46,554 bases of DNA from Stenomitos frigidus ULC18 (GTDB taxonomy: Bacteria > Cyanobacteriota > Cyanobacteriia > Leptolyngbyales > Leptolyngbyaceae): NCBI RefSeq assembly GCF_003003795.1, contig NZ_PVWK01000102.1, positions 1 through 46,554 of the forward strand. Direction: 5' to 3'. The notes below the pieces were generated by a model. The model saw nothing but the letters and a program-made list of their open reading frames with translations. It was not told the origin of the DNA and made no database searches. Position numbers and translations under genes: made by a program. Positions 1 to 46,104 of this stretch are shown here, piece after piece. Every line of letters starts with the position of its first letter. Within the stretch, counting starts at the first letter, position 1.

Positions 1-977
1 ATTCGGGAACTGCGAAAGCGGGACTGAATGTTGGCCTGACGCCATGTCGCTTTACGTACTTTTGCGTAAAAGAACCCCACTCGCACATTCTGCCGTCCGC
101 CATCGGGAATAGTTTTGGGATCAAAGCGCCATTTGGAAAAGGTTTCTAAGGTTTCTCGATCCAGATCAGAGTTACCACTCGATTGCCGCAGGCGAACATT
201 CGTGACTCTGCCATCGGAACCAATGTCGTAGGTGACGCGCGGACTGCCTTCAGAACCGCGATATTTTGGTTTGGGACATTCTAAGCAAACGGGTTGCGGG
301 GCACGATCGCTCTTAGGTGGAGCCGTTCGCGTGGCGGTTTCGTCCGGTTTGCCCGCCGGATCGCCGTTCACCTGTCCATCCGATTGTCCATTGGGGACTC
401 CCCCCGCTTTACCGTCTTCCTGTTCACCTGGTTGTCCATTTGGTTTACCAGTCGGCTTGCCATTAAGATTAAACCCAGCGCCAAATCCACCGAAGCCAAA
501 GCCAAACCCTTGACCGTCTGGGCTAGTGATGGGACCAGAACCGCCAGATTGGGTAGGGTTTTCACCCGTTTGATTGGTGAGGGGAGTTACAGGATCGTTT
601 GGCGACGCAGGGGCATCTTTACCAGGGGCATCTTGTCCGGCAGGCAGAGGAGCTTGGCTGGATGGGGCAAGCGGCAGAGGAGCAGGCGCAAGCTGAGCCG
701 CGATCGCCACGTCCTGAGCGGTGGCAACGGCAGTAGGGGGTTCGGGTGGGTCAGCGACCATCTTTTCGACGGTGGGTGGGTCAACAGGCGCATCTTCTAC
801 CACAACTTCCAAGTCATCCTCGTAGGCTGGAATGGCCGGATTCCAGAAGTTACCAACCTGCACCGTCATGGCGATGGCGTGCGCCATCAACGAACCAAGT
901 ACGCTGCATCCCAGAAAGAGCTTGAGTACTCTCTGTTCCTTGTGGCGTTGGTGCAGGATGCGTTCAGAGGGCTTCAT
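1..977 (-). CDS. tonB: TonB-family energy transducer, 3' end beyond window
   Basis: The frame is open from the ATG at 977 down to base 1 (325 codons), so the C-terminus is missing. Residues about 19-39 form one membrane segment after a basic start. A long Pro/Gly/Asn-rich linker (about 45-220) would span the periplasm. A TonB_C domain follows from about 226, seen as the stretches SEGSPRVTYDI, GRVTNVRLRQSSGNSDLD and FSKWRFDP. TonB proteins carry proton-motive energy from ExbB/ExbD to outer-membrane receptors. The start overlaps the exbD stop as ATGA, and only C-rich repeat DNA lies before it, so translation probably depends on coupling to exbD. The likely client is the receptor at 2618-4981. 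The family call is firm; the exact end is not visible. Confidence 0.9.
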   Translation of the reverse strand, partial: MKPSERILHQRHKEQRVLKLFLGCSVLGSLMAHAIAMTVQVGNFWNPAIPAYEDDLEVVVEDAPVDPPTVEKMVADPPEPPTAVATAQDVAIAAQLAPAPLPLAPSSQAPLPAGQDAPGKDAPASPNDPVTPLTNQTGENPTQSGGSGPITSPDGQGFGFGFGGFGAGFNLNGKPTGKPNGQPGEQEDGKAGGVPNGQSDGQVNGDPAGKPDETATRTAPPKSDRAPQPVCLECPKPKYRGSEGSPRVTYDIGSDGRVTNVRLRQSSGNSDLDRETLETFSKWRFDPKTIPDGGRQNVRVGFFYAKVRKATWRQANIQSRFRSSR

Positions 978-5043: not shown

Positions 5044-5589
5044 ATGAAACCCTGGACACTCAAAGACTATGTTTTTGCAGCCTTCATGACCATTGGTATT
5101 GCCGTTGCCTCTGCGATCGCGGTGCCACTCACCTTAGGCATTCCCTTACCTGGTGTTCGCACGATTGTTTGGGCACCCTTTGGCGGCATTTTTCTCACCC
5201 TGGGGATGGCTCGACTACAACGCAGTGGGAGCGTTGCCTTGATGATTGGGACCTTGGCGTTGCTGCTCAGTCGGTTGTCGTGGATCATTACGGCCTTTCT
5301 GGTAATTTCCCTGGTGATTACCGAAATTATGATGCTAGTGCGAGGAGGCTACCGCAGCAAGTTTAATCGCTTACTCGGAAATGTAATCTTCTTTGCCAGT
5401 ACGACGGTAACGGGAGCGCTCATTGGTGCCTACACTGCGTCTCCAGGTCTCACCCAATGGCTATCTCAACCGTGGATTTTGTTGCCGATGACACTCCTCT
5501 CTGGTTTAGCTGGGGCGATCGGCTGGTGGTTAGGTGAACTGGTGATTAAGCAACTGCAACGAGCTGGAAAACTGGATGTCGATCGCTAG
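5044..5589 (+). CDS. ECF transporter S component (substrate-binding membrane subunit)
   Basis: The product is 181 aa with about six membrane helices, including YVFAAFMTIGIAVASAIAV, FGGIFLTLGMA, WIITAFLVISLVI and LLSGLAGAIGWWLG. This small, very hydrophobic six-helix shape is that of S components of energy-coupling factor importers. The EcfT (14-nt overlap) and EcfA genes directly downstream confirm the role. It resembles the MptD-like group more than the vitamin-specific families I can recall, so the substrate is open. Co-location with a TonB receptor and CobN suggests a cobalt- or tetrapyrrole-related compound. I chose the ATG at 5044 over the overlapping TTG at 4978 because the extra residues come from a simple repeat. 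Confidence 0.75.
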   Translation: MKPWTLKDYVFAAFMTIGIAVASAIAVPLTLGIPLPGVRTIVWAPFGGIFLTLGMARLQRSGSVALMIGTLALLLSRLSWIITAFLVISLVITEIMMLVRGGYRSKFNRLLGNVIFFASTTVTGALIGAYTASPGLTQWLSQPWILLPMTLLSGLAGAIGWWLGELVIKQLQRAGKLDVDR

Positions 5590-6301
5590 GGCTTCATCGA
5601 AATCTCCAGGTTTTCTAACCAGAGTCAAACCACTGGCAAAAATCATTGTCAGTTTGGTCATCACGGGCATGGCATTCTCGGTGAAAAATGTGTGGGCAAT
5701 GGGTGTTTTGGCGGCGGTGTTAGTGGTGTTGCTCATGCTGTGTATCACCCGTCAAAACATTCGCCAGATCGGGCAAGGGATGATTGCTGGAACGATCGCG
5801 TTGCTGTTGTTTGTGGCGATCGGCACGTTGCTCCTGAACAATGTTCAAGCTGCGTTGCTGTACGGGTTACGTCTGGTTGCAATTTTGCTGCCCACGCCTC
5901 TACTTGCCCTCACTACTCCTCCAGCCGATTTAGTTCGGGCACTTCAGGCAGCAAAACTGCCATCGTTTCTCATTTTGAGTTTGATGCTGACCTGGCGATT
6001 TTTGCCCATCATTCAACAGGAGTCACAGCGCATTCTGGAGGCAAATCAATTACGGGGAGTCGATATCAGCCGTCAACCGCAGCATTGGTTTGCCGGATTA
6101 TTTGTGCCACTCATCTTTCGCATTGTTAGCTATGCCGATGATGTCACAATTGGTTTGGAGACGAGGGGATATGATCCCAACGCAACTCGGAGTATGAGTC
6201 AACCCTTGGTCTGGCAGCTACGCGATACTCTATTCGTAATCGGTTCTGTATTAGTGGTGGTATTGGTCGGATATTTAGATTCAGTCAATGCAGGAGGATA
6301 A
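5576..6301 (+). CDS. ecfT: ECF transporter transmembrane subunit EcfT
   Basis: The product is 241 aa with an N-terminal helical bundle (for example LAKIIVSLVITGMAFSV and LLLFVAIGTLLL) and a cytoplasmic coupling region. That region has the two short Arg-Gly motifs expected in EcfT: ANQLRGVD and LETRGYDP. These dock onto the ATPases and couple ATP hydrolysis to toppling of the S component. The start overlaps the S gene by 14 nt, and the ATPase gene begins 10 nt after its stop, so the three are one operon. The family is firm; substrate identity depends on the S component. Confidence 0.87.
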   Translation: MSIARASSKSPGFLTRVKPLAKIIVSLVITGMAFSVKNVWAMGVLAAVLVVLLMLCITRQNIRQIGQGMIAGTIALLLFVAIGTLLLNNVQAALLYGLRLVAILLPTPLLALTTPPADLVRALQAAKLPSFLILSLMLTWRFLPIIQQESQRILEANQLRGVDISRQPQHWFAGLFVPLIFRIVSYADDVTIGLETRGYDPNATRSMSQPLVWQLRDTLFVIGSVLVVVLVGYLDSVNAGG

Positions 6302-24929: not shown

Positions 24930-27900
24930 ATGCCTGACTCTAGGGAAGTTTTTGAGCATCCTATAGAACACTGGGATTTTCTGACAGCCTCAGACGATAC
25001 AGAGTTTGAAGGTCAATGTTTGGATCGCAAAGAAGCTGGGCGAGTTAGGCAGAATGACTGCATTAGCTCCAAAGAACTAGATGCCGTCCTGGAAAAAATA
25101 ACTACTTGTATCTCTGCATTTGCTAACACAAATAAATCAGGTAGCTTGCTAGTTATTGGGATCTCTTCACAGGGTGAAGTAAAAGGAATTAGCCACTTGT
25201 CAGATACTCAAAGAAGTAGACTGACAGCGTTTAACTCACTATTGCTTGATCAAGCGGCTCAGGCGAAATTTTTTGAATGTACCAACGACTTTGGTAAGAA
25301 AGATCTCATCTGTCTAGTCTACGTCCCTTACACGTCACGGCGAATTTGTCAGACTGTGGGTAATCATCCTCGTGCCTGGGTGAGGCAAGGTTCGCAAAAT
25401 ATCTGTCTCAACCAAGCACAACTTGAGCAATTGCAGCGAGATAAACGAGTTGTAGACTACGAGCAAGCAGATTGCTGCCCTTATGATTCTAGAGATTTAG
25501 ACCGAGCAGCTTTTCAAGAATTTTGTAAGGCGTTTTTATCAGATGCTTCTTATGATGACTACAGTGATGAAAAGATCCTCTACGACGTAGGTGCAATAAA
25601 TAGGGACGGTGTAGAATATACCTTCACAAATGCAGGTTTACTATTTTTTGCATTAAATCCTCAAAGAGTTCTGCCTGCCTCTTTTATTCGTCTAGTTAGA
25701 TTTGAAACCGATGTAGAAAACATTGATAATCGAGGCTTGCCAACATTTGACAGAAAATTCACAGGATCAATTACAAAGCAAATTCGTGATGTAAGAACTT
25801 TTTTTAGAGAATCAGGATTCTTCAAGCTTTACCAAAAAAGAAAAGCCGGGGGGGGCTTTATTGAAGAGCCAGAATATCCTTTTGATGCCATTGATGAAGC
25901 AATCGTTAATGCGGTAGCTCACCGTGAATATGCAATTGGATTGCCTATTGAATGCGAATCTTATAGGAATGCCTTTGTTGTCCGTAATTCAGGACGACTT
26001 CAGCAAAGAGATAGGGATGTTCCCGAACAGTTTTCTCTTGAGACTACACGGTTAATTCCATCTCCACGTAATCCGAAACTTATAGAATGGCTAAAAATGA
26101 TGCGTGATGAGCGCGGTGCTGAGTTTGTTAGAGCGCTCAGTGAAGGCACCAGGCGTATGCGCGACGAGATGAAATCTCTAGGTTTGCCAGCGCCCATCTA
26201 TAGGGTAAGCGAATCTCAGACAACAGTTGTTTTATTCAATAATTCTCAAGAAAGAGAATCTGCTCTTCGATTATTTGCTACATCCGAATCGACCGAATTT
26301 TCCAATTTGTTCCCTTTGACTTTTGTATCTGAGAGCAACGAAATTTTTAGTGCTGATGAAGTGTCTAATCACTATAGAGAGATTATGGCTGGCTTAAGAG
26401 ACGCTCTTGCAAATCACGATTGGTATATAGATAGTTTTAAATTCAGTAAATTAATAGCTCATAGACAGGGAATACACATTCCTTTATCTTCCTCGGTCAA
26501 TGAGTTAGTTAGATTTTATCCTGCCTATACGTTTCAATTACGCCAGTACTTAGGAAATTATTATTTATGCGTTGACTATACGTTGGAAGTGAAAAATATT
26601 AGAACAGCTAAAGATTCTCTAGCCTATTTCTCTCCAGATGAACTAATTGGTAGATCAGCAGTTGTTAGATGGGATGGGTGGGAGCGCGGAAAAATCATTT
26701 CTGTTGATCATGAATGGACTGGCGTATACCTATTTGATTTTAAGCAAGAAATTCAGATTGCCAGTAACAAGGTTATTCCAAATTTATCGAGAGCAAAAAT
26801 TGAACGTTTACTCAAGCAGCACAAAATTAGATTTGATTTAGCTAGAGCAATAAAGGAGCATAGCTTGTCATTAGAGCCAAATTCTTCAAGAATTCGTGCT
26901 GAGAAAACTCAAACAACGGCTACAGATCTCGCTCAGGAAATATTTCCATTGAAGGTTAATGGATATTGGTGCCACCTGAAGCCTGAGACGACTCCTTTAC
27001 ACAGGCAAAGCGATTCTTTAAGTGGTTTGCAAGTCCGTAGTGTGCCAGAACCAGATGTTGAATTTAGCCATCATCGTGAATCTAAAGATATTCGTGATGG
27101 TATTACGAAGTTTGGAGCTTATAGCAATGTTGAAAAAATCATTGAAATTATTCCTATTTGTGTATCAGACTTACGTAGTAATATGGCTGCTCTCATTGAG
27201 CGCCTGAAAACAGGAAAGTATAAATACCGTGGTTCAGAACGTACCTTTAAAACACGATTTCATTATTCTTCTATTATTACACCTACATCAGCTGAAGACA
27301 CTTTAACTGAATGTAGAAGGCTGCTTCAAGAGCATCCGAAATGGATTGGAGACCAAAGTCTTGAGCGGATATTTCTTGTTAGTGTTCCTAAGGGAAGTTA
27401 CTCAATTGATGATGAGGGATCTCCCTACTATATCGTTAAAAAATTCTTGCTTGAGAACGGTATTCCCTGTCAGATGATTGACACACCTACGCTTATCAAT
27501 CCCGACTGGAAAGATCTGAACCTATCATTAAATATAGTTTCAAAATGTGGCGTTACCCCCTGGGTCTTACCAGGAGCAATACCTGATGCTGATTTTTTCA
27601 TTGGTCTTTCGTACACACAGAGTACTCGTGGCAATTTTGAGCGTTTAATGGGATATGCAAATGTTTTTGATCAATACGGTAAATGGCAGTTTTATTCTGG
27701 AAATATAGATACTTTTCCTTATAGCGAAAAGATTAGATCTTTTAGTTTATTAATAGAGCAAACTTTAACTAGACTTCCATTATCTGAAACCCCAAGCATC
27801 TATTTTCATTATTCTGCAAAATTCTCGCGTGAAGACAGGGCAGCAATTCTCGAAGCGGCTCGACGGATTAGACCACAAGGAAAGTACTCATTTGTTTGGA

Positions 27901-28301
27901 TAAATTCACATCACAATGTAAGACTTTATGATGGGCGTTCTGAGACTGATGGAAGTTTAAGTCGAGGCAGTTATGTCATTACCTCTCCTAATCAAATCTA
28001 TCTTTCAACAACAGGGTACAATTCCTACCGTAAAGCTCTCGGAACACCCGTTATGCTTGAGATAAACGTAAGAGTAGAGTATTCAAAGGGAACACCCAAC
28101 TCTCCTCCAGATTTAAGAGCAGTAGCTGCACAAATTCTGAGCTTAACTAAACTTAATTGGGGTTCTACTGATTCATTATGTGGTGAACCAATCACAACTA
28201 AATATGCAGGAGACATTGCTTATTTGACATCTGCCTTTATGAGACAGGGTAATACTTTCCATTTGCACTCTGTTTTAGAGAGAACACCCTGGTTTATTTG
28301 A
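24930..28301 (+). CDS. Schlafen AlbA_2 / RecG-like ATP-binding module fused to long prokaryotic Argonaute
   Basis: The product is 1,123 aa. Residues about 20-175 are a Schlafen AlbA_2 domain (AFANTNKSG at 63-71, LLVIGISS 73-80, EVKGI 83-87). Residues 185-438 follow RecG-like HATPase_c_4 proteins (AIDEAIVNAVAHREY 320-334, FVVRNSGRL 349-357, SPRNP 378-382, EGTRRM 405-410). Residues about 445-800 match the N/L1/PAZ-like part of long Argonautes (QYLGNYYLCVDYTLEV). MID has the Y/K/Q/K set: Y833/Y834, K837/K838, GIPCQ with Q848, K872. PIWI ends in LSLTKLNWGSTDSLCGEPIT, close to RsAgo-type (long-B) proteins. Ser894 replaces the first catalytic Asp (FIGLSY), and the RDG site is absent near 961-970, so slicing is unlikely. 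I infer guide-dependent defence in which the N-terminal module is the effector. The gene stands alone and is AT-rich, suggesting transfer. Confidence 0.85.
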   Translation: MPDSREVFEHPIEHWDFLTASDDTEFEGQCLDRKEAGRVRQNDCISSKELDAVLEKITTCISAFANTNKSGSLLVIGISSQGEVKGISHLSDTQRSRLTAFNSLLLDQAAQAKFFECTNDFGKKDLICLVYVPYTSRRICQTVGNHPRAWVRQGSQNICLNQAQLEQLQRDKRVVDYEQADCCPYDSRDLDRAAFQEFCKAFLSDASYDDYSDEKILYDVGAINRDGVEYTFTNAGLLFFALNPQRVLPASFIRLVRFETDVENIDNRGLPTFDRKFTGSITKQIRDVRTFFRESGFFKLYQKRKAGGGFIEEPEYPFDAIDEAIVNAVAHREYAIGLPIECESYRNAFVVRNSGRLQQRDRDVPEQFSLETTRLIPSPRNPKLIEWLKMMRDERGAEFVRALSEGTRRMRDEMKSLGLPAPIYRVSESQTTVVLFNNSQERESALRLFATSESTEFSNLFPLTFVSESNEIFSADEVSNHYREIMAGLRDALANHDWYIDSFKFSKLIAHRQGIHIPLSSSVNELVRFYPAYTFQLRQYLGNYYLCVDYTLEVKNIRTAKDSLAYFSPDELIGRSAVVRWDGWERGKIISVDHEWTGVYLFDFKQEIQIASNKVIPNLSRAKIERLLKQHKIRFDLARAIKEHSLSLEPNSSRIRAEKTQTTATDLAQEIFPLKVNGYWCHLKPETTPLHRQSDSLSGLQVRSVPEPDVEFSHHRESKDIRDGITKFGAYSNVEKIIEIIPICVSDLRSNMAALIERLKTGKYKYRGSERTFKTRFHYSSIITPTSAEDTLTECRRLLQEHPKWIGDQSLERIFLVSVPKGSYSIDDEGSPYYIVKKFLLENGIPCQMIDTPTLINPDWKDLNLSLNIVSKCGVTPWVLPGAIPDADFFIGLSYTQSTRGNFERLMGYANVFDQYGKWQFYSGNIDTFPYSEKIRSFSLLIEQTLTRLPLSETPSIYFHYSAKFSREDRAAILEAARRIRPQGKYSFVWINSHHNVRLYDGRSETDGSLSRGSYVITSPNQIYLSTTGYNSYRKALGTPVMLEINVRVEYSKGTPNSPPDLRAVAAQILSLTKLNWGSTDSLCGEPITTKYAGDIAYLTSAFMRQGNTFHLHSVLERTPWFI

Positions 28302-28600: not shown

Positions 28601-29143
28601 ATGGAACCAATACTCCTATTTTTAGACATTGATGGCGTGTTAAGCGTCTCTGATACCGCTATCGTAGACCAGGAGATGCCTTTAGATGGGTCGCTTGTCT
28701 ATCCATTGCCGGGAGCCAGAGCCTTTCTTCAAGCGATCAACCGCTCTCCTTGGATTCAACCGCTTTGGCTCTCTTCTTGGGGAGAGCGCTCTTACTGTTG
28801 GAACGATTGGGCTGCTACAGAGCATTGGATCCATGCTCATCCACTGCCATGCACACAGCGTCAATTGGCACAGACCCAATTTCAAGCTCAGAATCCCGAA
28901 GCAAAATATCTCTCTGTGCGTTGGCATAGCCGCCATTGGAATCATGCGATTGTCTGGATTGAAGACGGTTTCACGCAAGAAAGTAAAATTTGGGCAGACC
29001 AAAACCCCAAAGTGCGGCTAATCGATACTGATCCTCTCTTTAAGCGTCACCTGAGAGACGCGAAGAGAGGTCTGCGTCAGTGGAATATTGCTTTGATTTG
29101 CAGTACGCTCGGAATTGAGGAGAGTATTGCGGTCTCGCTCTAA
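28601..29143 (+). CDS. HAD-superfamily protein
   Basis: The product is 180 aa beginning with the HAD motif I, FLDIDGVL, with Asp9 and Asp11. LWLSSWGE supplies the motif II Ser/Thr position, and VWIEDGF fits the motif IV acid. The gap to the Argonaute fusion stop is 299 nt. Short stand-alone HAD proteins of this look resemble the HAD domain found in bacterial RNA-repair polyproteins (a 5'-phosphate or 3'-phosphate trimming role). Here that is only a similarity of pattern. The substrate is unknown. It might belong to the same defence island as the Argonaute gene, but no sequence tie shows this. Confidence 0.72.
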   Translation: MEPILLFLDIDGVLSVSDTAIVDQEMPLDGSLVYPLPGARAFLQAINRSPWIQPLWLSSWGERSYCWNDWAATEHWIHAHPLPCTQRQLAQTQFQAQNPEAKYLSVRWHSRHWNHAIVWIEDGFTQESKIWADQNPKVRLIDTDPLFKRHLRDAKRGLRQWNIALICSTLGIEESIAVSL

Positions 29144-33221: not shown

Positions 33222-33806
33222 TCAAAAGTTAGTTGGCTCTATGGCTTGGCGAAACGCTTTGATTGCCGCCAGTTTTGACGGCATCGTCATGCATTGACAG
33301 AGCAGCGTTAGATCAATGCCTGGCAAGGCTTCGCTTGCCTCCACCTGGACGTAGTGCTCGCCTTGCAGGCAATGCAAGGTAAACTTGCCCTTTTTCCAAA
33401 ACCAGACTTCTGGTACGCCCATGCGCTTGTATTTCCGAAGCTTTTTAGTGCTACCACTGGAAATAATGATCTCAATACAGAGATCAGGGCGATCTTTATC
33501 GGTGCCCAGGCAGTAAGACAGATCTGATTGATACTCAGTGATGCCCTCGACGATTTGAGAATAGCTGCCGCTAGGGAAGAACTCAAGCTCCATCGTTTCA
33601 AAATAAGCACCGAGCAGTAGAGCCAGAGTACTCGCGATCGCTTCATGCGGTTTTGAGATCCCCAAGATTTCCAGCTCTCCCTCACAGTAAGTCAACCGCA
33701 CGTTGGGAATGTGCTCAAAGCTGTGTTGTATCGCTTTGAACTGCGCCCATGTCACGCCTGTTTGCACAAAGATTTGTTTTGGCTGCTCTAGAACTTGTGT
33801 AGTCAT
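33222..33806 (-). CDS. Uma2 family (DUF820) putative endonuclease
   Basis: The product is 194 aa. The restriction-endonuclease-like pattern of Uma2 is clear: GELEILG, KPHEAIAS, DLSYCLG for the metal-binding Asp region, RPDLCIEIII with the Asp/Glu pair, and KKLRKYKRMGVPEVWFW near the end. Uma2 proteins are very common in cyanobacteria and have no agreed biological role. The gene lies 46 nt after a small RHH protein on the same strand, an arrangement like antitoxin-toxin pairs. A nuclease fold is known for the family; activity here is inference. Confidence 0.87.
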   Translation of the reverse strand: MTTQVLEQPKQIFVQTGVTWAQFKAIQHSFEHIPNVRLTYCEGELEILGISKPHEAIASTLALLLGAYFETMELEFFPSGSYSQIVEGITEYQSDLSYCLGTDKDRPDLCIEIIISSGSTKKLRKYKRMGVPEVWFWKKGKFTLHCLQGEHYVQVEASEALPGIDLTLLCQCMTMPSKLAAIKAFRQAIEPTNF

Positions 33807-33852: not shown

Positions 33853-34050
33853 CTAATTTTGCTCTGGCGGATTATAACCATTTTGTTTAGCCATATCTTC
33901 AAGCATTTTCTCAATGAAGTTTGAGAGGGAACGCTTTTCAGCACCTGCCTGCTTTTCTAGAAAGTCTCGCAGTTCGAGATCGCACACAAAAGTGATTCGC
34001 TCCCGTTTGGTAGGCACGTCTGGAAGAAAGGATGAGTTAGTTACATCCAT
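33853..34050 (-). CDS. Ribbon-helix-helix (CopG/Arc-like) DNA-binding protein
   Basis: The product is 65 aa. TKRERITFVCDLELRDFLEKQAG fits the RHH beta strand plus first helix, and KRSLSNFIEKMLEDMAKQ the second helix. Such proteins bind short palindromes as dimers of dimers. Two AGTTCNGAACT sites lie 40-70 nt upstream of its start, inside the divergent promoter of the ribonuclease gene at 34274. It therefore likely represses itself and the ribonuclease. It precedes the Uma2 gene, with which it may form a toxin-antitoxin-like pair. Confidence 0.8.
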   Translation of the reverse strand: MDVTNSSFLPDVPTKRERITFVCDLELRDFLEKQAGAEKRSLSNFIEKMLEDMAKQNGYNPPEQN

Positions 34051-34090
34051 CGTATCGCCTGTGTCGAACTTCCTTGATCTTACCCGAAAA

Positions 34091-34133
34091 AGTTCAGAAC
34101 TTAATTGACACAGTTCCGAACTAAATCTAGCAT
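34091..34133 (+). promoter_or_regulatory. Promoter with two AGTTCNGAACT operators
   Basis: AGTTCAGAACT (34091-34101) and AGTTCCGAACT (34112-34122) are 21 bp apart centre to centre, two helical turns. Between and across them lies TTGACA (34105-34110), 17 bp, then TAGCAT (34128-34133), a good sigma-70-type promoter pointing at the ribonuclease gene. The second operator fills the spacer. The adjacent RHH protein is the obvious candidate ligand. Confidence 0.7.
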
Positions 34134-34273
34134 CATGCGTAGGCAGTGGGTAAGAGCCAGTTGCTTCCCATGCCTTCGACCGAAGAACTCGCTTTAGCCT
34201 CAGATGTGCAGCCTCAAAAGACTGGTTTTATAATTTCATCTCTTGCCAAAAGACACGATGGGGCACCAAAAGC

Positions 34274-36025
34274 ATGGAAACAGTCACAGGCTTTACGATC
34301 GACGATGCCTCATCACAAGACTTAGATGATGCGATTTGGGTCGAAGCAGAAGGGGCGCAGACGCGGCTACAGGTGCATATTGCCGATGTGTCACGGGTAA
34401 TTGAAAAGGGAGCTTTCCTTGACCAGCAAGCACTCAAGCGGGGTGAAACGCTGTACCTGCCGCAGTCGATTAAACCCATGTTCCCCCAGAGTGTTGAGGC
34501 ATCACTAAGCCTCCTACCCTTTGTCGAGCGTCCAGTCGTGACGGTCACCATGTTGCTTGATGCGGTCGGAGAACTGCTTAACGTTGAAATAGCTGAAAAT
34601 AGCCTCGTCAGTCAGGAAAAGTTCAGCTACGAGGCAGTGGCAGGGATACTGAGTGGTGCACCTCATCACCTCCAGCCACAGTTAAAGCTGCTAGAGCAAG
34701 TGACACAGGCACTCATGCACCAGCGACAGCAGCAGGGAGCCATCTACGGGCGTACCTTTGGTAGCGTTTATGTGGATGAAGAGGGGCGGCTCATCACACA
34801 GTCAGTCAAAGCGCAACCGATCATCGCTGAACTCATGATCTTAACCAATCGGGTTGTGTCCCAGTACATGCACGACCAGCAGCAGCCTTGGATCTACCGC
34901 ACCCACAATTACAGAGATTTGAGTGCACTGCCCGCAGCGCGACAACGGTTCATCCGATCACTGGAGGCGATGAACGATGATGAACAACTACAACGGGCAC
35001 TAGCGAATCACTATGATCGTGCCGCCTATAGTGCTGTTCCCGGTCGTCATGTGGGCTTGGGCTTGGATGCGTATACGCACTTTACCTCACCGATTCGCCG
35101 CTATGTGGATGTCGTCAATCATCGGCTGCTCAAAGCTGCGATCGCGGGTAGTCCGGCTCCCTATACCCAGGTTGAACTGGAAACTATTGCTGACAGTCTG
35201 ACCGCACGGCAACGAGCCATTCGAGACAAGAAAAATGAGCACCATCGAGCACTGCGGCATCAGGACAGAGACAAGCTAATGGCAACTGGCAAGCTTGATC
35301 AGCTAGAGGCACTGGCACCCGCTGAGTTTACGCGTGTACTCAAAACAGCCGTGAGCCAGCAGCAAATGGCAGCACTAGAGTCTGTCATCTTGCAGCGCTT
35401 AGAAGCTGAAACATTACAACCGCTAGATTTCTACCAAGTGTTAATAGCACTGCCAACCACTGCCGAGAACATTCAGTTTAAGCTGCAACTGTGGCAGGCG
35501 ATCGCTGCTAAACCGCTTACGCTCCAGGTGATCAACCTATGCCGCGATAACTGGAAACCAGGCACAAAGGTTGAGTTCCGTGAACAAGGAGAAATGAACG
35601 CCTGGGCATCGCTCTGCGTTGTGACCAGTGAAGGGCTAGAGCAGTGCCCACCGCTCTGGTCAGTGGCACAGTCAAAAGCGACTGCACGGGTACAGTCCGC
35701 CCACCAGTGGCTAGAGTCCTGGCTGTGGGAAGAACTTACAACGCCTGAGCAAGCTCAGATGCCAGCGCCAGAACCAGCAGCACCCCACGCTCAAACGCCG
35801 AAGCAAAACAGACTTGATTCAGAAGCTAAAACAGATTACATCACCACCATCAATCTCTATGCTCAGAAGCATGGAGAGCCTCAAGCAGAGTACGAGTTTG
35901 AAACAGTGAGCAGCACTCATTTTAAGTGCAAATGCTATTTCCTTGAACTGGTCGGCGAGGGTGAAGGGAGTAATAAGAAAACAGCTAAGAGTGCTGCCGC
36001 AGGACATCTCTGGAAGCAGCTTTAA
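34274..36025 (+). CDS. RNB (RNase II type) ribonuclease with C-terminal dsRNA-binding domain
   Basis: The product is 583 aa. The RNB catalytic centre is complete: Asp10, Asp16, Asp18 and Asp19 in TIDDASSQDLDDA, the same spacing as the catalytic Asps of RNase II, plus YTHFTSPIRRYVDVVNHR. RNB enzymes digest RNA 3' to 5'. Here the usual N-terminal cold-shock domains and C-terminal S1 domain are missing. Residues about 521-583 instead form a dsRNA-binding motif (GEGEGSNKKTAKSAAAGHL). That pairing would direct the exonuclease to structured RNA, perhaps plasmid control RNA or defence-related duplexes. The promoter upstream overlaps two RHH-type operators, so expression is probably tightly held. The catalytic call is strong; the role is inferred. 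Confidence 0.88.
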   Translation: METVTGFTIDDASSQDLDDAIWVEAEGAQTRLQVHIADVSRVIEKGAFLDQQALKRGETLYLPQSIKPMFPQSVEASLSLLPFVERPVVTVTMLLDAVGELLNVEIAENSLVSQEKFSYEAVAGILSGAPHHLQPQLKLLEQVTQALMHQRQQQGAIYGRTFGSVYVDEEGRLITQSVKAQPIIAELMILTNRVVSQYMHDQQQPWIYRTHNYRDLSALPAARQRFIRSLEAMNDDEQLQRALANHYDRAAYSAVPGRHVGLGLDAYTHFTSPIRRYVDVVNHRLLKAAIAGSPAPYTQVELETIADSLTARQRAIRDKKNEHHRALRHQDRDKLMATGKLDQLEALAPAEFTRVLKTAVSQQQMAALESVILQRLEAETLQPLDFYQVLIALPTTAENIQFKLQLWQAIAAKPLTLQVINLCRDNWKPGTKVEFREQGEMNAWASLCVVTSEGLEQCPPLWSVAQSKATARVQSAHQWLESWLWEELTTPEQAQMPAPEPAAPHAQTPKQNRLDSEAKTDYITTINLYAQKHGEPQAEYEFETVSSTHFKCKCYFLELVGEGEGSNKKTAKSAAAGHLWKQL

Positions 36026-41752: not shown

Positions 41753-41842
41753 CGGTTGCTGCCCTTATGACAGTTCTTGCCTCTCAACGCCTGACTGTCA
41801 CTGTCAAACTTGCCAGTCCTCCACCCTCTATCGGAGTCCCCC

Positions 41843-42805
41843 ATGAGTGAATTTCTGCAATTTCTCATCCCGGATCGTGATTATGGTTACTTGTTCCCTC
41901 ATAGCCGCTCTGTTGCCGCCTTTGGAGCCATGAGCGAGTACCACATTACGAAGCATCGCCCTCACTTAACCGAAAGAGTCCACTTTATCAAAAGTGCTGG
42001 CAATGGTGCCGATCACGTCATGCGCGTTTTTTATACCTTCAGCGGTTTGTTGCTCCTATCTGATCTGGTCGGATCGGCTCAAGCCGTGCAACTCAAACAA
42101 GCGCTACTTGACCATGCCCAACGTCAAGCACAGGCACCGGGAGCGCTAGTGCCCGCTCATGGTAGCGGGATGAGCTATACACAGCCACAAGTCCAGCCTA
42201 CTGGACATTACGACTCGACCTACGCACAACCTGGACAGTCTCAGCAATGGGGACAGCCTGCGATCCACCAGCCGGGACAGCTTGTGCCCAACGCCCACGG
42301 TTATTTGCCCGTGCAACAACCCTATGGACAGCCACAGCCTTATGGACAGTCTGGACAGACTGATCCAGCACACCAGGTGGCAGCAGCCTTAGCACCGTAT
42401 GTCGATCGCAGCGTTGATCGTACTGTCTCTCGGCATCTGGGCGCGGTTCAAAGCCAGCAAGAGCAAGCATTACAGCTAGTAGACGGCGTAGCAAACACCA
42501 TGCTCAGAGTCCAAGAGCAAACGGCTACCCACATCTCACGGGCATACGAGCAAGCGGCCGGCAATCCCAACGTAGAGCGATCGACACCGGATGTCTTGCT
42601 GTTGCAGCAGCGATCACGGTCAGGGTGGTGGCAAGAAAATGATCCCTGGTTCGCCCTGCTAGTCGGTGTCAGCCTTGCCACGGTGATCGGCGTGGGCACC
42701 TGGCTCATTGCCAGCACTGTGCTGCGTGGAGGGCAGTCACAGCCAAACTCACAGCCCGTCAGACTGGCACCTGCATACCCGTCTTCTGCCATACCGCTTA
42801 ATTAG
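41843..42805 (+). CDS. Hypothetical tail-anchored membrane protein with Pro/Gln linker
   Basis: The product is 320 aa from the ATG at 41843 (GGAG 7 nt upstream). A folded N-terminal part (to about 105) is followed by a Gln/Pro/Gly/Tyr-rich linker with YGQP-type repeats. A helical segment (VDRTVSRHLGAVQSQQEQALQLV) and a single membrane helix near the end (WFALLVGVSLATVIGVGTWLIA) come next. The form suggests a protein held at the inner membrane with its bulk in the cytoplasm. It may be a partner of the ATPase downstream. Family not recognised. Confidence 0.65.
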   Translation: MSEFLQFLIPDRDYGYLFPHSRSVAAFGAMSEYHITKHRPHLTERVHFIKSAGNGADHVMRVFYTFSGLLLLSDLVGSAQAVQLKQALLDHAQRQAQAPGALVPAHGSGMSYTQPQVQPTGHYDSTYAQPGQSQQWGQPAIHQPGQLVPNAHGYLPVQQPYGQPQPYGQSGQTDPAHQVAAALAPYVDRSVDRTVSRHLGAVQSQQEQALQLVDGVANTMLRVQEQTATHISRAYEQAAGNPNVERSTPDVLLLQQRSRSGWWQENDPWFALLVGVSLATVIGVGTWLIASTVLRGGQSQPNSQPVRLAPAYPSSAIPLN

Positions 42806-42873
42806 TTTCAATTAGCTTCATCAGTCTTTTTGCACAAATTAACCACAAACTCATCACAACCTACAAGGTCACA

Positions 42874-43416
42874 ATGCCAGAACTCATCAGATACTCGAAA
42901 CAGCCCGATACGACGGTCACAAACATTGTTCCGCACGATCGCGAGTCCGTCACACCCGAACTTTCAGCCCTGGAGTTTGAAACCCAGCTTGAGGGGGTCA
43001 AGCGCCAGCAGCGTGGGGTCAAATTGGCGATCGCCCAAGCCGAACTTGCCAAAGACCGACACGTCTTACGCGCCAAGCTGATTGAAGTGGGCACGGCTGA
43101 AATTGGGGTGGAGCTTGCCAGACAAGCCTTCCACACGCAAGCGTACAAACTGATTGAAGCCCGTGCTACAGCTGCGATCGCGCAGGATAACGCTGGCGCA
43201 AAAGTCAAAGAGTGGGCATTTAACCAGGACGGGATTCGCAACAGGCTGGAAGCGCTGGATCTGGGCATCAAGCAGTCCCAGGCAGAGCTAGAGGTGAAAA
43301 ACAGTGCCTTCAGCTTCAAAGGTCTGTCAGGCTTGGCAGCAAAGGTAACAAACGCCGTCAGCGCAGCCGTGACGACTGACTCCAGCACCAGTCGTTCACG
43401 CAAGCAAGCCAGTTAA
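42874..43416 (+). CDS. Hypothetical coiled-coil protein
   Basis: The product is 180 aa, AAGG 6 nt before the ATG. Residues about 30-135 are an unbroken, charged helix pattern (QLEGVKRQQRGVKLAIAQA, then LARQAFHTQAYKLIEARA) typical of coiled coils. The end is Ser/Arg/Lys-rich. No enzyme motif. It lies 69 nt after the membrane protein gene and 13 nt before a small membrane protein, so it is likely a structural part of the same complex. Confidence 0.65.
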   Translation: MPELIRYSKQPDTTVTNIVPHDRESVTPELSALEFETQLEGVKRQQRGVKLAIAQAELAKDRHVLRAKLIEVGTAEIGVELARQAFHTQAYKLIEARATAAIAQDNAGAKVKEWAFNQDGIRNRLEALDLGIKQSQAELEVKNSAFSFKGLSGLAAKVTNAVSAAVTTDSSTSRSRKQAS

Positions 43417-43428
43417 GGAGGTCTAAAC

Positions 43429-43680
43429 ATGCCACGACTCGCGTATGCCGCAGCCAGTCTACTCAGCGCCAACCTCCTGGCTGAAGCCATCCGTGCGCTC
43501 TGGCGTTCAGGTGTGCTGCCACCGTTTAACCTTCTCCTGCTGGTGCTAGTTGTCCTGGGCATGGTTGCTCTGGTCTGGTTTGCCACGCTGGAGGCTTCAC
43601 CCCGTTGGTATGAGTACGAACGGGAAGCCAAAGTCTGTGCCATCGCAGGTTTAGTCGGTGCTTTGTTGGTTTTTGTTTGA
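43429..43680 (+). CDS. Small integral membrane protein
   Basis: The product is 83 aa with a strong AAGGAGGT before the ATG. Two or three membrane segments are visible: NLLLLVLVVLGMVALVWFA and VCAIAGLVGALLVFV, with a weaker one near the start. The next gene has the same AGGAGGTCTAAAC leader, so the two are probably made in similar amounts. It corresponds by position to the damaged membrane ORF at 15284-15469. Confidence 0.7.
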   Translation: MPRLAYAAASLLSANLLAEAIRALWRSGVLPPFNLLLLVLVVLGMVALVWFATLEASPRWYEYEREAKVCAIAGLVGALLVFV

Positions 43681-43710
43681 GTCTGATAGACAAAACAGGA
43701 GGTCTAAACG

Positions 43711-46104
43711 ATGGTCGCCCCTTCCCCCTTCCAGCTACGTCCATCTTGTCACGATCGCCAACCTGCCCATCTCGCAGCGACACCGCATCTCCTAACAGGC
43801 ATTGCTTGCTTGAGCCTGTTCAGCTTTGCTATGACTGGAAACAGCGGTGTGAGTGGCTCTCGTTGGTTCTGGAATGGCGTGAAGCTGCTGGGAGCAGGGG
43901 CAGCGATCGAAGCTGCTATCCTCTATCGAAAAAAGGAACGTGAGGAGGCTTTCACCCTGGAGAGCCAGCATATTTCCCATGTGACGGGTGATCTCCGCTA
44001 TGGCTATGAGACGCAGCTAGACGCGCAACGTTACCACTATGAGCAAACCATGCAACAACTCGTGGCACAGTCTCAAGCGGATGTGCAGGCGTTGCGGCAG
44101 CAGTTAGAACAAGCTGAGTTACGCAAGCTACAGGCAGTTGAAACCGAGCGCGAACGGCTGTCGCTGGAGTGGCAGCGATTGCAGCGTGAACTGGAAAGAG
44201 TGCAGTCGGAACGTGCCCTACTCGACCAATGGCATGAGCAGCAGCAGGTTGCTTTGGCTGAGTGGGAAGTGTCGCTCACGGAGAAGGAGCAGACCTTTGA
44301 AGCGGCTCTAGAAGCCCAAATCCAGGAGGCTCAAGACCACTACGATGCGAAACACGCTGAATTAGAGTCCCGGCATGAAAAGCTACTGGCAGCGATCGAA
44401 GCTGAAATGCAGGAGCAAAAGACCTTCTATACCGAGCTTGTGGGCGAAGCGCTCAGTGAAGCGCACAAGCTCAAGAAGCCTGATCTGCCTGCGGGTGGCT
44501 CACCCTATGAACTGCTGGCGCGGGATGCCATCCGCACGTTGTATGAATATGGCGTGATTGTGAAGCAACCCGTCGTCAAACCGCTGACCAAGAGCCGTTT
44601 TGAACTGAGTTTTGCCATTCTGCCGATCGAGCCAGCCCCCACAACTGGTAATAACAAGGCGACGAAAGTCCATTTTGTCCGTAATCTCGCTGAGGCGTAC
44701 AAGCTCATCGAGCGCGACCTTCTAAAGCCCTTGAGAGCCGCTGTCCCTGGTTGCAATAGCGATCCAAGTGTGGAACCGATCAGCGTCCCGTTTGCAGGCG
44801 TGAAGCTGACCTTTGATGTCTCTGGCATCGACTGGGTGGAGCATGAAAAACTGGAGAGAGCCAACCCTGCCTTACTCCTCAAAGAGCCGTCACCAGAACA
44901 CTTTCAGACGTTTATCCAACGGGCATCACACATTGGTTTGTTTGGCGGGACACGGGTCGGTAAAACAGTGGCGATGAACAACATCATTGCCGTCCAGCAG
45001 CAACTTCTGGGCGGCGATGCCAAGCTCATTGTCGGGGATGCCAAGCTCTCAGTCGAAATCCGCGCACTGCGACCGGCTTACTTGGGTGCTGAAGAATGTC
45101 TACTCATGCTCCGAGATGCCTCGGACGAGGTACAGAAGCGGATTGACTTGCGGGCTGAGGATTATCGCCAGAATCGTCCTCTGCGGCTGTTTGATGCCGA
45201 TAAACGCATTTATTTGTTAGATGAAATCAATGAGGTCATTTCACGCTTTAACAACCCGCTAGACCCCAAAGACATCGAGTTTCTGGACGCGCACGAAATG
45301 CCCAAACGCTTTGCCGTCAGCATCTACCTGCTGCGAATCTGGCGGATGGGAGCGGAGTTAGGACTGTTGAGCCTGATTGCGGGACAGAACCTCATGGCAA
45401 ACGTCCTCAAGATGAACATCGTCGATCTGGAGAACCTCGGCATTCTCTTTGTCGGGGGTGCGATCAGCGTCGGCATTGGCTATCGCTGTAAAGGCACTGA
45501 GAAAACAGCGATGGAGCAGGAGTTTCAGCAGCGACGTGCCCTCCGTGAACAGTTCCCCGACGATCCAGCGTTCAAATACTACGCCATGTTTGCTCTTGCC
45601 AATGAAAAACCCTATATGGCAAAGATGCCTGGGGTGGGCGAGTATGCTGTGACGCTGGATGCGGACGGGCAGAAGGCACAGGAAGCCTTTAACGCAGCGA
45701 TCGAGACAGCAAGGGGTTTAAGTGATGCTGAGGAAGAGTCGGTAGCGGATGAGTCGGTAGCGGGGAGTGGGTCCGATCGTGTGCTGGAGCAATTGGAAAG
45801 CCTTTACAACCTGCCCGCGATCGCGCCGGAGAATCTGCATACTAATGCCCCAGATTTCGACGCGCTCACACCGGAAGCCGTTGAGTTTCTGGCGTATCTG
45901 GAGGGCAAAGAGTGGCTGGATGTCTTTCAGGGAGTCCGTCATTATCGCCGCTATTGGGGTGAGCGCAATGGCTTCAATGCTGAGGCATTTCTGCAATTCC
46001 TGACGGCGATTAATCTGGCTGGCTTTGGTGCCTTTGATGATGACGCAACCAAATGGCGATCGCGCCACTATCCGCAATTGCCTGACGAAAGCCACTTTGA
46101 GTGA
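43711..46104 (+). CDS. Membrane-anchored coiled-coil VirD4/FtsK-like ATPase
   Basis: The product is 797 aa with GGAGGT upstream. Hydrophobic segments near 28-65 are followed by a long coiled coil (about 90-245; LRQQLEQAELRKLQAVETERE is typical). The ATPase core has Walker A GGTRVGKT (412-419) and Walker B RIYLLDEINEV with Asp504/Glu505. The family of ring ATPases that couple DNA to a transfer channel (VirD4, FtsK, TraG) is the best fit. The long coiled coil in front of the motor is unusual for classical T4CPs. It closes a five-gene operon and could serve the MobA relaxosome, or partition. C-terminal 100 residues may bind the substrate. Confidence 0.82.
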   Translation: MVAPSPFQLRPSCHDRQPAHLAATPHLLTGIACLSLFSFAMTGNSGVSGSRWFWNGVKLLGAGAAIEAAILYRKKEREEAFTLESQHISHVTGDLRYGYETQLDAQRYHYEQTMQQLVAQSQADVQALRQQLEQAELRKLQAVETERERLSLEWQRLQRELERVQSERALLDQWHEQQQVALAEWEVSLTEKEQTFEAALEAQIQEAQDHYDAKHAELESRHEKLLAAIEAEMQEQKTFYTELVGEALSEAHKLKKPDLPAGGSPYELLARDAIRTLYEYGVIVKQPVVKPLTKSRFELSFAILPIEPAPTTGNNKATKVHFVRNLAEAYKLIERDLLKPLRAAVPGCNSDPSVEPISVPFAGVKLTFDVSGIDWVEHEKLERANPALLLKEPSPEHFQTFIQRASHIGLFGGTRVGKTVAMNNIIAVQQQLLGGDAKLIVGDAKLSVEIRALRPAYLGAEECLLMLRDASDEVQKRIDLRAEDYRQNRPLRLFDADKRIYLLDEINEVISRFNNPLDPKDIEFLDAHEMPKRFAVSIYLLRIWRMGAELGLLSLIAGQNLMANVLKMNIVDLENLGILFVGGAISVGIGYRCKGTEKTAMEQEFQQRRALREQFPDDPAFKYYAMFALANEKPYMAKMPGVGEYAVTLDADGQKAQEAFNAAIETARGLSDAEEESVADESVAGSGSDRVLEQLESLYNLPAIAPENLHTNAPDFDALTPEAVEFLAYLEGKEWLDVFQGVRHYRRYWGERNGFNAEAFLQFLTAINLAGFGAFDDDATKWRSRHYPQLPDESHFE

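Follow-up and report, generated by a model that had tools for sequence, protein, structure and literature searches.

Which gene do the two palindromes embedded in the promoter at positions 34,091–34,133 serve: the ribonuclease gene at which this promoter points, or the small RHH gene that lies divergently from it? The window analysed here, that is, the whole stretch of DNA under study, comprises all 46,554 bases of contig 40 of the Stenomitos frigidus ULC18 genome (G000), a plasmid-like contig. A first-pass annotation had read the locus as a system in which the RHH protein binds the palindromes and silences both a nuclease and itself. The features on which the present analysis is based are collected in Table 1.

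Table 1. Features of the RHH control region and its surroundings, in window coordinates.
Feature	Position	Strand	Remarks
CyRepA1-family plasmid replication protein (DUF3854), 1057 aa	29294..32467	-	NCBIfam NF042913, 334 bits (cut-off 200); Pfam DUF3854
Uma2-family gene	33222..33806	-	between the RHH gene and rep; Pfam Uma2
RHH (CopG/Arc-like) protein, 65 aa, presumed repressor	33853..34050	-	Pfam RHH_5, E 1.4e-3; family profile A3
Conserved 289-bp unit (RHH gene and control region)	33853..34141	-	blastn, 75.8% identity to G079
Lone half-site AGTTC	34066..34070	-	kept in the G079 alignment
O1, palindromic putative operator AGTTCAGAACT	34091..34101		just 5' of the plus-strand -35; exact match
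-35 TTGACA, divergent promoter	34105..34110	+	between O1 and O2; TTGACT in G079
O2, palindromic putative operator AGTTCCGAACT	34112..34122		inside the -35/-10 spacer; exact match
Predicted extended -10 TGCTAGATT of the RHH promoter	34124..34132	-	overlaps the plus-strand -10; same in G079
-10 TAGCAT, divergent promoter	34128..34133	+	same in G079
RNB exoribonuclease with C-terminal dsRNA-binding domain	34274..36025	+	Pfam RNB and dsrm
Three genes related to the G079 divergent operon	41810..46104	+	tblastn, 32–44% identity (41852–45876)

Two exact palindromes are embedded in a putative bidirectional promoter

The palindromes O1 and O2 are both exact and lie, as initially described, 21 bp apart from start to start. 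Among the 55 exact 5-N-5 palindromes of the window, AGTTCAGAACT/AGTTCCGAACT form the sole identical pair separated by no more than 40 bp, and no such pair appeared in 200 dinucleotide shuffles of the window. The lone half-site AGTTC may possibly represent a weak third site. Exact single sites number six in the whole of G000, about the chance expectation for 7 Mb; two of them belong to the window, three to a 63/21-bp tandem repeat on contig 28 and one to an ORF on contig 160. The spaced pair was found in 6 of 388 genomes of the class (16 places, several of them in apparent repeat arrays) versus 5 of 388 (6 places) for the backward control, and the bare pattern is not clearly enriched across these genomes. 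A scan of viral contigs returned seven stretches with the paired pattern, every one at 22-bp spacing. The case rests on the position of the sites and on what conserves them.

Contig 28 of G000 (L054, positions 5507–5689) carries a 21/63-bp tandem array holding AGTTCNGAACT, and the spaced pattern repeats at close intervals in genomes G005, G086 and G262 and is found singly on two G001 contigs. Such arrays and closely spaced copies are a trap for motif searches, and they would fit a reading of the palindromes as functionless leftovers of a 21-bp tandem repeat. However, no tandem array was detected at positions 34,000–34,300 of the window, the spacer carries a conserved TTGAC element, and relatives have palindromes at the same place that share the TTCNGAA core and differ in their outer bases. 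We therefore regard an origin as functionless repeat remnants as barely credible.

The TTGACA-17-TAGCAT promoter noted in the first pass was recovered on the plus strand, overlapping the palindromes, with a spacing of 17 bp and 10 of 12 consensus matches. A match of such quality has a shuffle mean of 0.9 in the 700-bp stretch scanned, i.e. it is expected about once by chance, and it counts only because relatives keep the promoter. The extended -10 element predicted on the opposite strand would serve the RHH gene; the -10 hexamers of the two strands overlap at positions 34128–34129, and no good -35 was found on the RHH strand of the window (best 3/6). Transcription is predicted to start at approximately position 34140 on the plus strand and at approximately 34117, the centre of O2, on the RHH strand. 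These divergent starts, both of which are sequence predictions, lie 23 bp apart, within the 7–25 bp reported for the divergent starts of bidirectional promoters (PMC10268837). Overlapping -10 elements on opposite strands are likewise described for bacterial bidirectional promoters (PMC12825309, PMC10268837). Unlike those promoters, the present one is predicted to have a repressor dedicated to it, and its starts are predicted ones. A short ORF of 59 aa (34146–34325, plus strand) lies between the promoter and the RNB gene and overlaps the start of the latter in another frame.

The divergent gene encodes a small, probable RHH protein

In line with the first description, the RHH gene lies divergently at 40 nt from the palindromes, with its start codon at position 34050 on the minus strand. 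The encoded protein scores below the curated Pfam cut-offs for RHH families, with 18.8 of 26 bits for RHH_5, 19.5 of 27 for RHH_6 and 13.1 of 20.5 for RHH_1. A single-sequence monomer model contains helices at residues 15–37 and 42–56 (block pLDDT 78–87), and the strand is not formed in this monomer model. Arc heads the list of Foldseek matches, in which CopG falls within the top 15 and the CopG structures 2CPG, 1B01 and 1EA4 appear, every E value exceeding 1; a sequence search against solved structures gave weak matches (best E 0.2). The strand of the protein reads ITFVC, within a family pattern xxFxC, and its residue T20 presumably points into the DNA groove, by comparison with CopG and Arc. 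No relatives of the protein were found on viral contigs.

The control region is conserved together with the RHH gene

Searching 144 genomes, its own included, yielded a single close relative (75%) of the RHH protein, in genome G079, which belongs to another family of the class. The conserved 289-bp unit, spanning the RHH gene and its control region, is the only DNA match detected by blastn between the window and the fetched 10.5-kb G079 locus. The G079 equivalents of O1 and O2 are AGTTCAGAACC and AGTTCTGAACC; the 21-bp spacing is kept, and both palindromes are changed at the same outer base with respect to the window. The half-sites are identical at 18 of 20 positions, versus 50 of 71 in the rest of the non-coding stretch, a difference that is weak when taken alone (Fisher p 0.06).

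Additional relatives were gathered through genome searches and plasmid searches, the latter giving 20 distinct plasmid records, of which 18 were examined and the two others are 95%-identity matches like that of locus L117. Rows with less than 120 bp upstream, with no start codon in reach, or with more than 70% ungapped identity or an identical protein were dropped. The resulting family consists of 20 de-duplicated xxFxC genes, those of the window and G079 included, and the comparison set consists of 34 RHH relatives without the xxFxC strand; the upstream stretch scored was 160 bp in length. The 20 rows are partly related, as in the sets L101/L103/L011, L007/L008 and L104/L117. A scan of the genome collection with a two-sequence profile gave one match, a decayed RHH relative (80%) in an uncultured cyanobacterium (L088, positions 2016–2165), which has an in-frame stop and no operators and is not counted among the 20 rows; a match at G294:C675 appears to lie on this same contig.

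At least two TTCNGAA palindromes were present upstream of 8 of the 20 xxFxC genes (shuffle mean 0.038, maximum 1 in 1000 shuffles), a count that overstates independence because these eight members come from about four lineages, and upstream of none of the 34 other RHH relatives. In total, the 20 upstream stretches contain 24 TTCNGAA sites (shuffle mean 1.3) and the 34 contain three (shuffle mean 1.4). The outer bases around the core differ between relatives, as in AGTTCNGAACT, GCTTCNGAAGC and ACTTCNGAAGT. Moreover, 14 of the 20 family members have a divergent TTGACn-16..18-TAnnnT promoter (shuffle mean 0.23, maximum 3); sense-direction copies were found in 2 of 20, and divergent ones in 4 of the 34 other relatives (shuffle mean 0.38, maximum 5). 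A palindrome lies within the hexamer spacer in all eight two-site members. In the sense direction, 18 of the 20 carry an extended -10 of the form TGnTAnnnT (shuffle mean 5.1, maximum 11). Of the 14 members with a divergent promoter, 13 have this element overlapping the -10 of that promoter; it is common upstream of the other RHH genes too (16/34, shuffle mean 7.5).

The remaining 12 family genes do not have a TTCNGAA pair. Sorting the family by the strand residue, the pair occurs in 8 of 13 members with a TF strand, so that five with this strand are among those 12, and in none of the seven with MF, NF or AF, the split being post hoc and the rows non-independent. This association bears on the question of which protein would bind the palindromes. 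As binding by the RHH protein is a prediction from sequence, another regulator could occupy the sites, with the RHH gene merely linked to them. A third-party binder would not explain why the palindrome type follows the predicted DNA-contacting residue of the RHH strand, and we consider such a regulator very unlikely.

The RNB ribonuclease is probably an incidental neighbour

The promoter does point at the RNB gene, as had been claimed: RNB starts at position 34274 on the plus strand, with no other large gene between it and the conserved plus-strand promoter. Its product begins directly with the catalytic domain, as does the relative encoded on contig 81 of genome G002. This position would fit a switch dedicated to the silencing of RNB by the RHH protein, as in a toxin–antitoxin or a conditional nuclease pair, and so would the occurrence of RNB relatives on plasmids (172 of 72,556 plasmid records, including 35 from Rhodococcus and 9 from Acaryochloris), the copy on pIITB6_1 lying one gene away from a CyRepA1 gene. 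The neighbourhoods of RNB relatives argue against it. Four relatives were considered, one on contig 156 of G000 (57%) and three in G002, on contig 2 (57%), contig 81 (56%) and contig 28 (a broken copy with pieces of 65% and 45%). No window-type palindromes, allowing up to one mismatch, were found in the fetched DNA of these four, and the RHH family profile matched at one of the four loci (L059 10831–11064, on G002 contig 28; E 4e-9), at a distance of approximately 2.6 kb from the broken RNB copy. The same profile gave no match in the pIITB6_1 or pMB07 stretches. Furthermore, RNB was detected in none of the 29 loci around RHH relatives (tblastn, E ≤1e-3), and the conserved regulator–nuclease linkage of a toxin–antitoxin system was not observed.

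The control region in G079 faces not RNB but a different operon, whose first gene is orthologous among G079, G022 and G150 (62–67%), where it occupies the same divergent position; G299 gave a partial match (50%). A switch dedicated to the nuclease is improbable in view of these loci. Genes related to the G079 operon are also present in the window, starting approximately 7.7 kb from the promoter and 6 kb past the end of RNB, with RNB itself, an unassigned gene, mobilisation genes and others lying between the promoter and these relatives. As these relatives are found beyond RNB, the ribonuclease gene appears to occupy a slot that holds the other operon elsewhere. RNB is probably incidental to the RHH unit rather than its conserved target, and it may be repressed because of where it lies. 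These data suggest that the palindromes belong with the RHH gene, not with RNB. What stands of the first-pass interpretation is this tie, carried by the 289-bp match to G079, and the position of the palindromes, at which a bound protein would block the plus-strand promoter and probably that of the RHH gene itself. The comparison thus supports the predicted binding, but lends no support to a system whose purpose is to silence a nuclease.

The RHH gene is linked to plasmid replication genes

As in a CopG-like arrangement, the RHH gene is located upstream of, and co-oriented with, a replication gene, here that of CyRepA1, from which it is separated by a gap of 1.4 kb containing the Uma2 gene. The RHH–Uma2–DUF3854 order is also found in Oscillatoria pOSC7112.03, with small genes interspersed. 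At 13 of the 20 family loci (L007, L012, L112, L117, L104, L128, L120, L129, L122, L132, L130, L126 and L124), a replication-type gene was found downstream of the RHH gene and on its strand; the count is 10 of 20 without the AAA_25 and DUF3987 proteins. The latter are the products at L122 and L130 (AAA_25, helicase-like) and at L132 (DUF3987), which we take to be of replication type; the stricter ten are supported by CyRepA1/DUF3854, PriCT-2 or a dnaB annotation. The rep gene of L128 was deduced from coordinates, and L104 was read via its plasmid copy L116, which has an identical upstream sequence. At five loci the downstream protein has no assigned family (L101, L011 and L008, which are mutually related, L103 and L153), and no downstream replication-type gene was seen at L020 and L095.

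Viewed from the replication gene, no annotated RHH gene was found upstream of the nearest of the CyRepA1 relatives examined (Leptolyngbya boryana p1, 55%), and in eight CyRepA1 neighbourhoods selected by rep similarity (L135–L142) the RHH profile produced one weak match only (L137, E 0.017). The RHH linkage therefore does not hold for CyRepA1 genes in general. Two further genes were observed in this part of the window. A large protein with a Schlafen AlbA_2 domain (Pfam; 24930–28301) adjoins the replication region and is possibly a defence gene, and a HAD_SAK_2-like protein, an RNA-repair-related HAD just under the Pfam cut-off, is encoded at 28601–29143.

RHH proteins encoded beside plasmid partition and rep genes are also known from ParG/ParR partition systems, which combine autoregulation with repeated sites. 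The RHH protein of the window could be a ParR/ParG-like adaptor, with the palindromes as a small centromere and autoregulation as a side effect. The divergent gene is actin-like, with Pfam scores above cut-off, at no fewer than five of the 20 family loci (L128, L130, L132, and L177 and L178, which are the loci of L020 and L012), the scan having covered part of the 20, and that of pNPM7 is annotated as ParM/StbA. Loci L116, L117 and L118 (UHCC 0870, PCC 7601 and pNPM7) have four spaced sites. In related Tolypothrix and Nostoc plasmids, genes annotated as ParG are found at the place equivalent to that of the RHH gene (L137 2782–2952 and L138 2635–2850), between a divergent operon, which includes parM in L137, and CyRepA1. 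However, of these ParG-annotated proteins one is the weak match to the family profile already mentioned and the other gave none. In contrast to ParG/ParR systems, the window and G079 have only two sites, placed precisely around the -35 as a promoter operator would be, and the window genes adjoining the site are RNB and Uma2, with no adjacent actin-like gene. Pfam scans of neighbouring genes in the window beyond its first 24 kb, one of them run on nine window or G079 proteins, gave no actin-like or ParA-like match among the scanned window neighbours, several of which had no Pfam match at all, and no adjacent ParM or ParF gene was seen. A partition role is plausible for the members facing actin-like genes; as an account of the palindromes in the window we judge it unlikely, though less so than a dedicated nuclease switch.

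Comparison with known regulators

CopG of plasmid pMV158, an RHH repressor of copG-repB, is the nearest working analogue. The RHH protein of the window resembles it in being a tiny plasmid protein encoded upstream of rep, a predicted autorepressor with palindromes over the promoter, this last likeness being judged on the DNA letters only. It differs from CopG in that two palindromes with a TTCNGAA core and a predicted two-way promoter are present here, the rep gene encodes CyRepA1 and is not directly adjacent, and similarity in both sequence and fold is weak.

Among cyanobacteria, autorepression by an RHH protein has been proven for TrcR (all0854) of Anabaena PCC 7120, which acts at a site overlapping the -10 of its own gene (PMC10272220). 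TrcR differs from the present protein in controlling translation-related genes and a tRNA operon through another motif, and linkage to rep is not mentioned in the available part of that report (PMC10272220). In pSYSA, replication through ssr7036–slr7037, the latter encoding a CyRepA1 protein, is described as being controlled by an antisense RNA and RNase E, and there too a small ORF lies immediately upstream of CyRepA1 in the replication-control region (PMC9978351). The family profile matched neither Ssr7036, which was considered as a possible relative (E 0.5), nor anything else in that pSYSA stretch. Neither "ribbon" nor "CopG" occurs in the main text of the cyanobacterial Rep papers mentioning CyRepA1 that were covered, mostly from outside the subscription literature.

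A proposed self-repressing regulator on a putative bidirectional promoter

Taken together, the evidence makes it probable that the locus encodes a plasmid-borne, replication-linked RHH regulator that represses itself from a bidirectional promoter. The 65-aa protein would bind O1 and O2, probably as one dimer per palindrome, and the two sites, two helical turns apart, could allow cooperativity across these turns. The O1-TTGACA-O2-TAGCAT array would constitute the control region of the bidirectional promoter. Once bound, the pair would cover the plus-strand -35, the spacer and the RHH start site, which may shut both directions, and the predicted outcome is negative autoregulation of the RHH gene. 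If the RHH transcript runs on for 1.4 kb, the same repression would act as a brake on CyRepA1, much as CopG acts on pMV158. Other plasmids carry different genes in the divergent slot, including actin-like partition genes in some cases; here RNB sits in it and is probably repressed by position.

In summary, the locus is a conserved operator–promoter–repressor unit in a plasmid replication region. Its sites, their conservation, the layout of the promoter and the rep linkage are seen in the sequence; binding, dimer stoichiometry, cooperativity, repression of RNB, read-through into rep and an effect on copy number are predicted. A more far-reaching proposal, which we offer tentatively and hold to be less likely than not, is that an undescribed family of portable switches of approximately 290 bp, each made up of the RHH gene and its two-way promoter, sits between rep and a plugged-in operon, that T20 sets the TTCNGAA code and that RNB is a recent plug-in. 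If a single residue of the strand determined the operator code, compatible plasmids would carry different operators and exchange their payload operons. The locus would also be a naturally occurring example of a bidirectional promoter that has a repressor to itself. A rep-linked RHH repressor with a readable operator, if true, would represent a second, protein-based route of CyRepA1 control beside the antisense RNA described for pSYSA (PMC9978351), one that lends itself to testing and to use in plasmid vectors.
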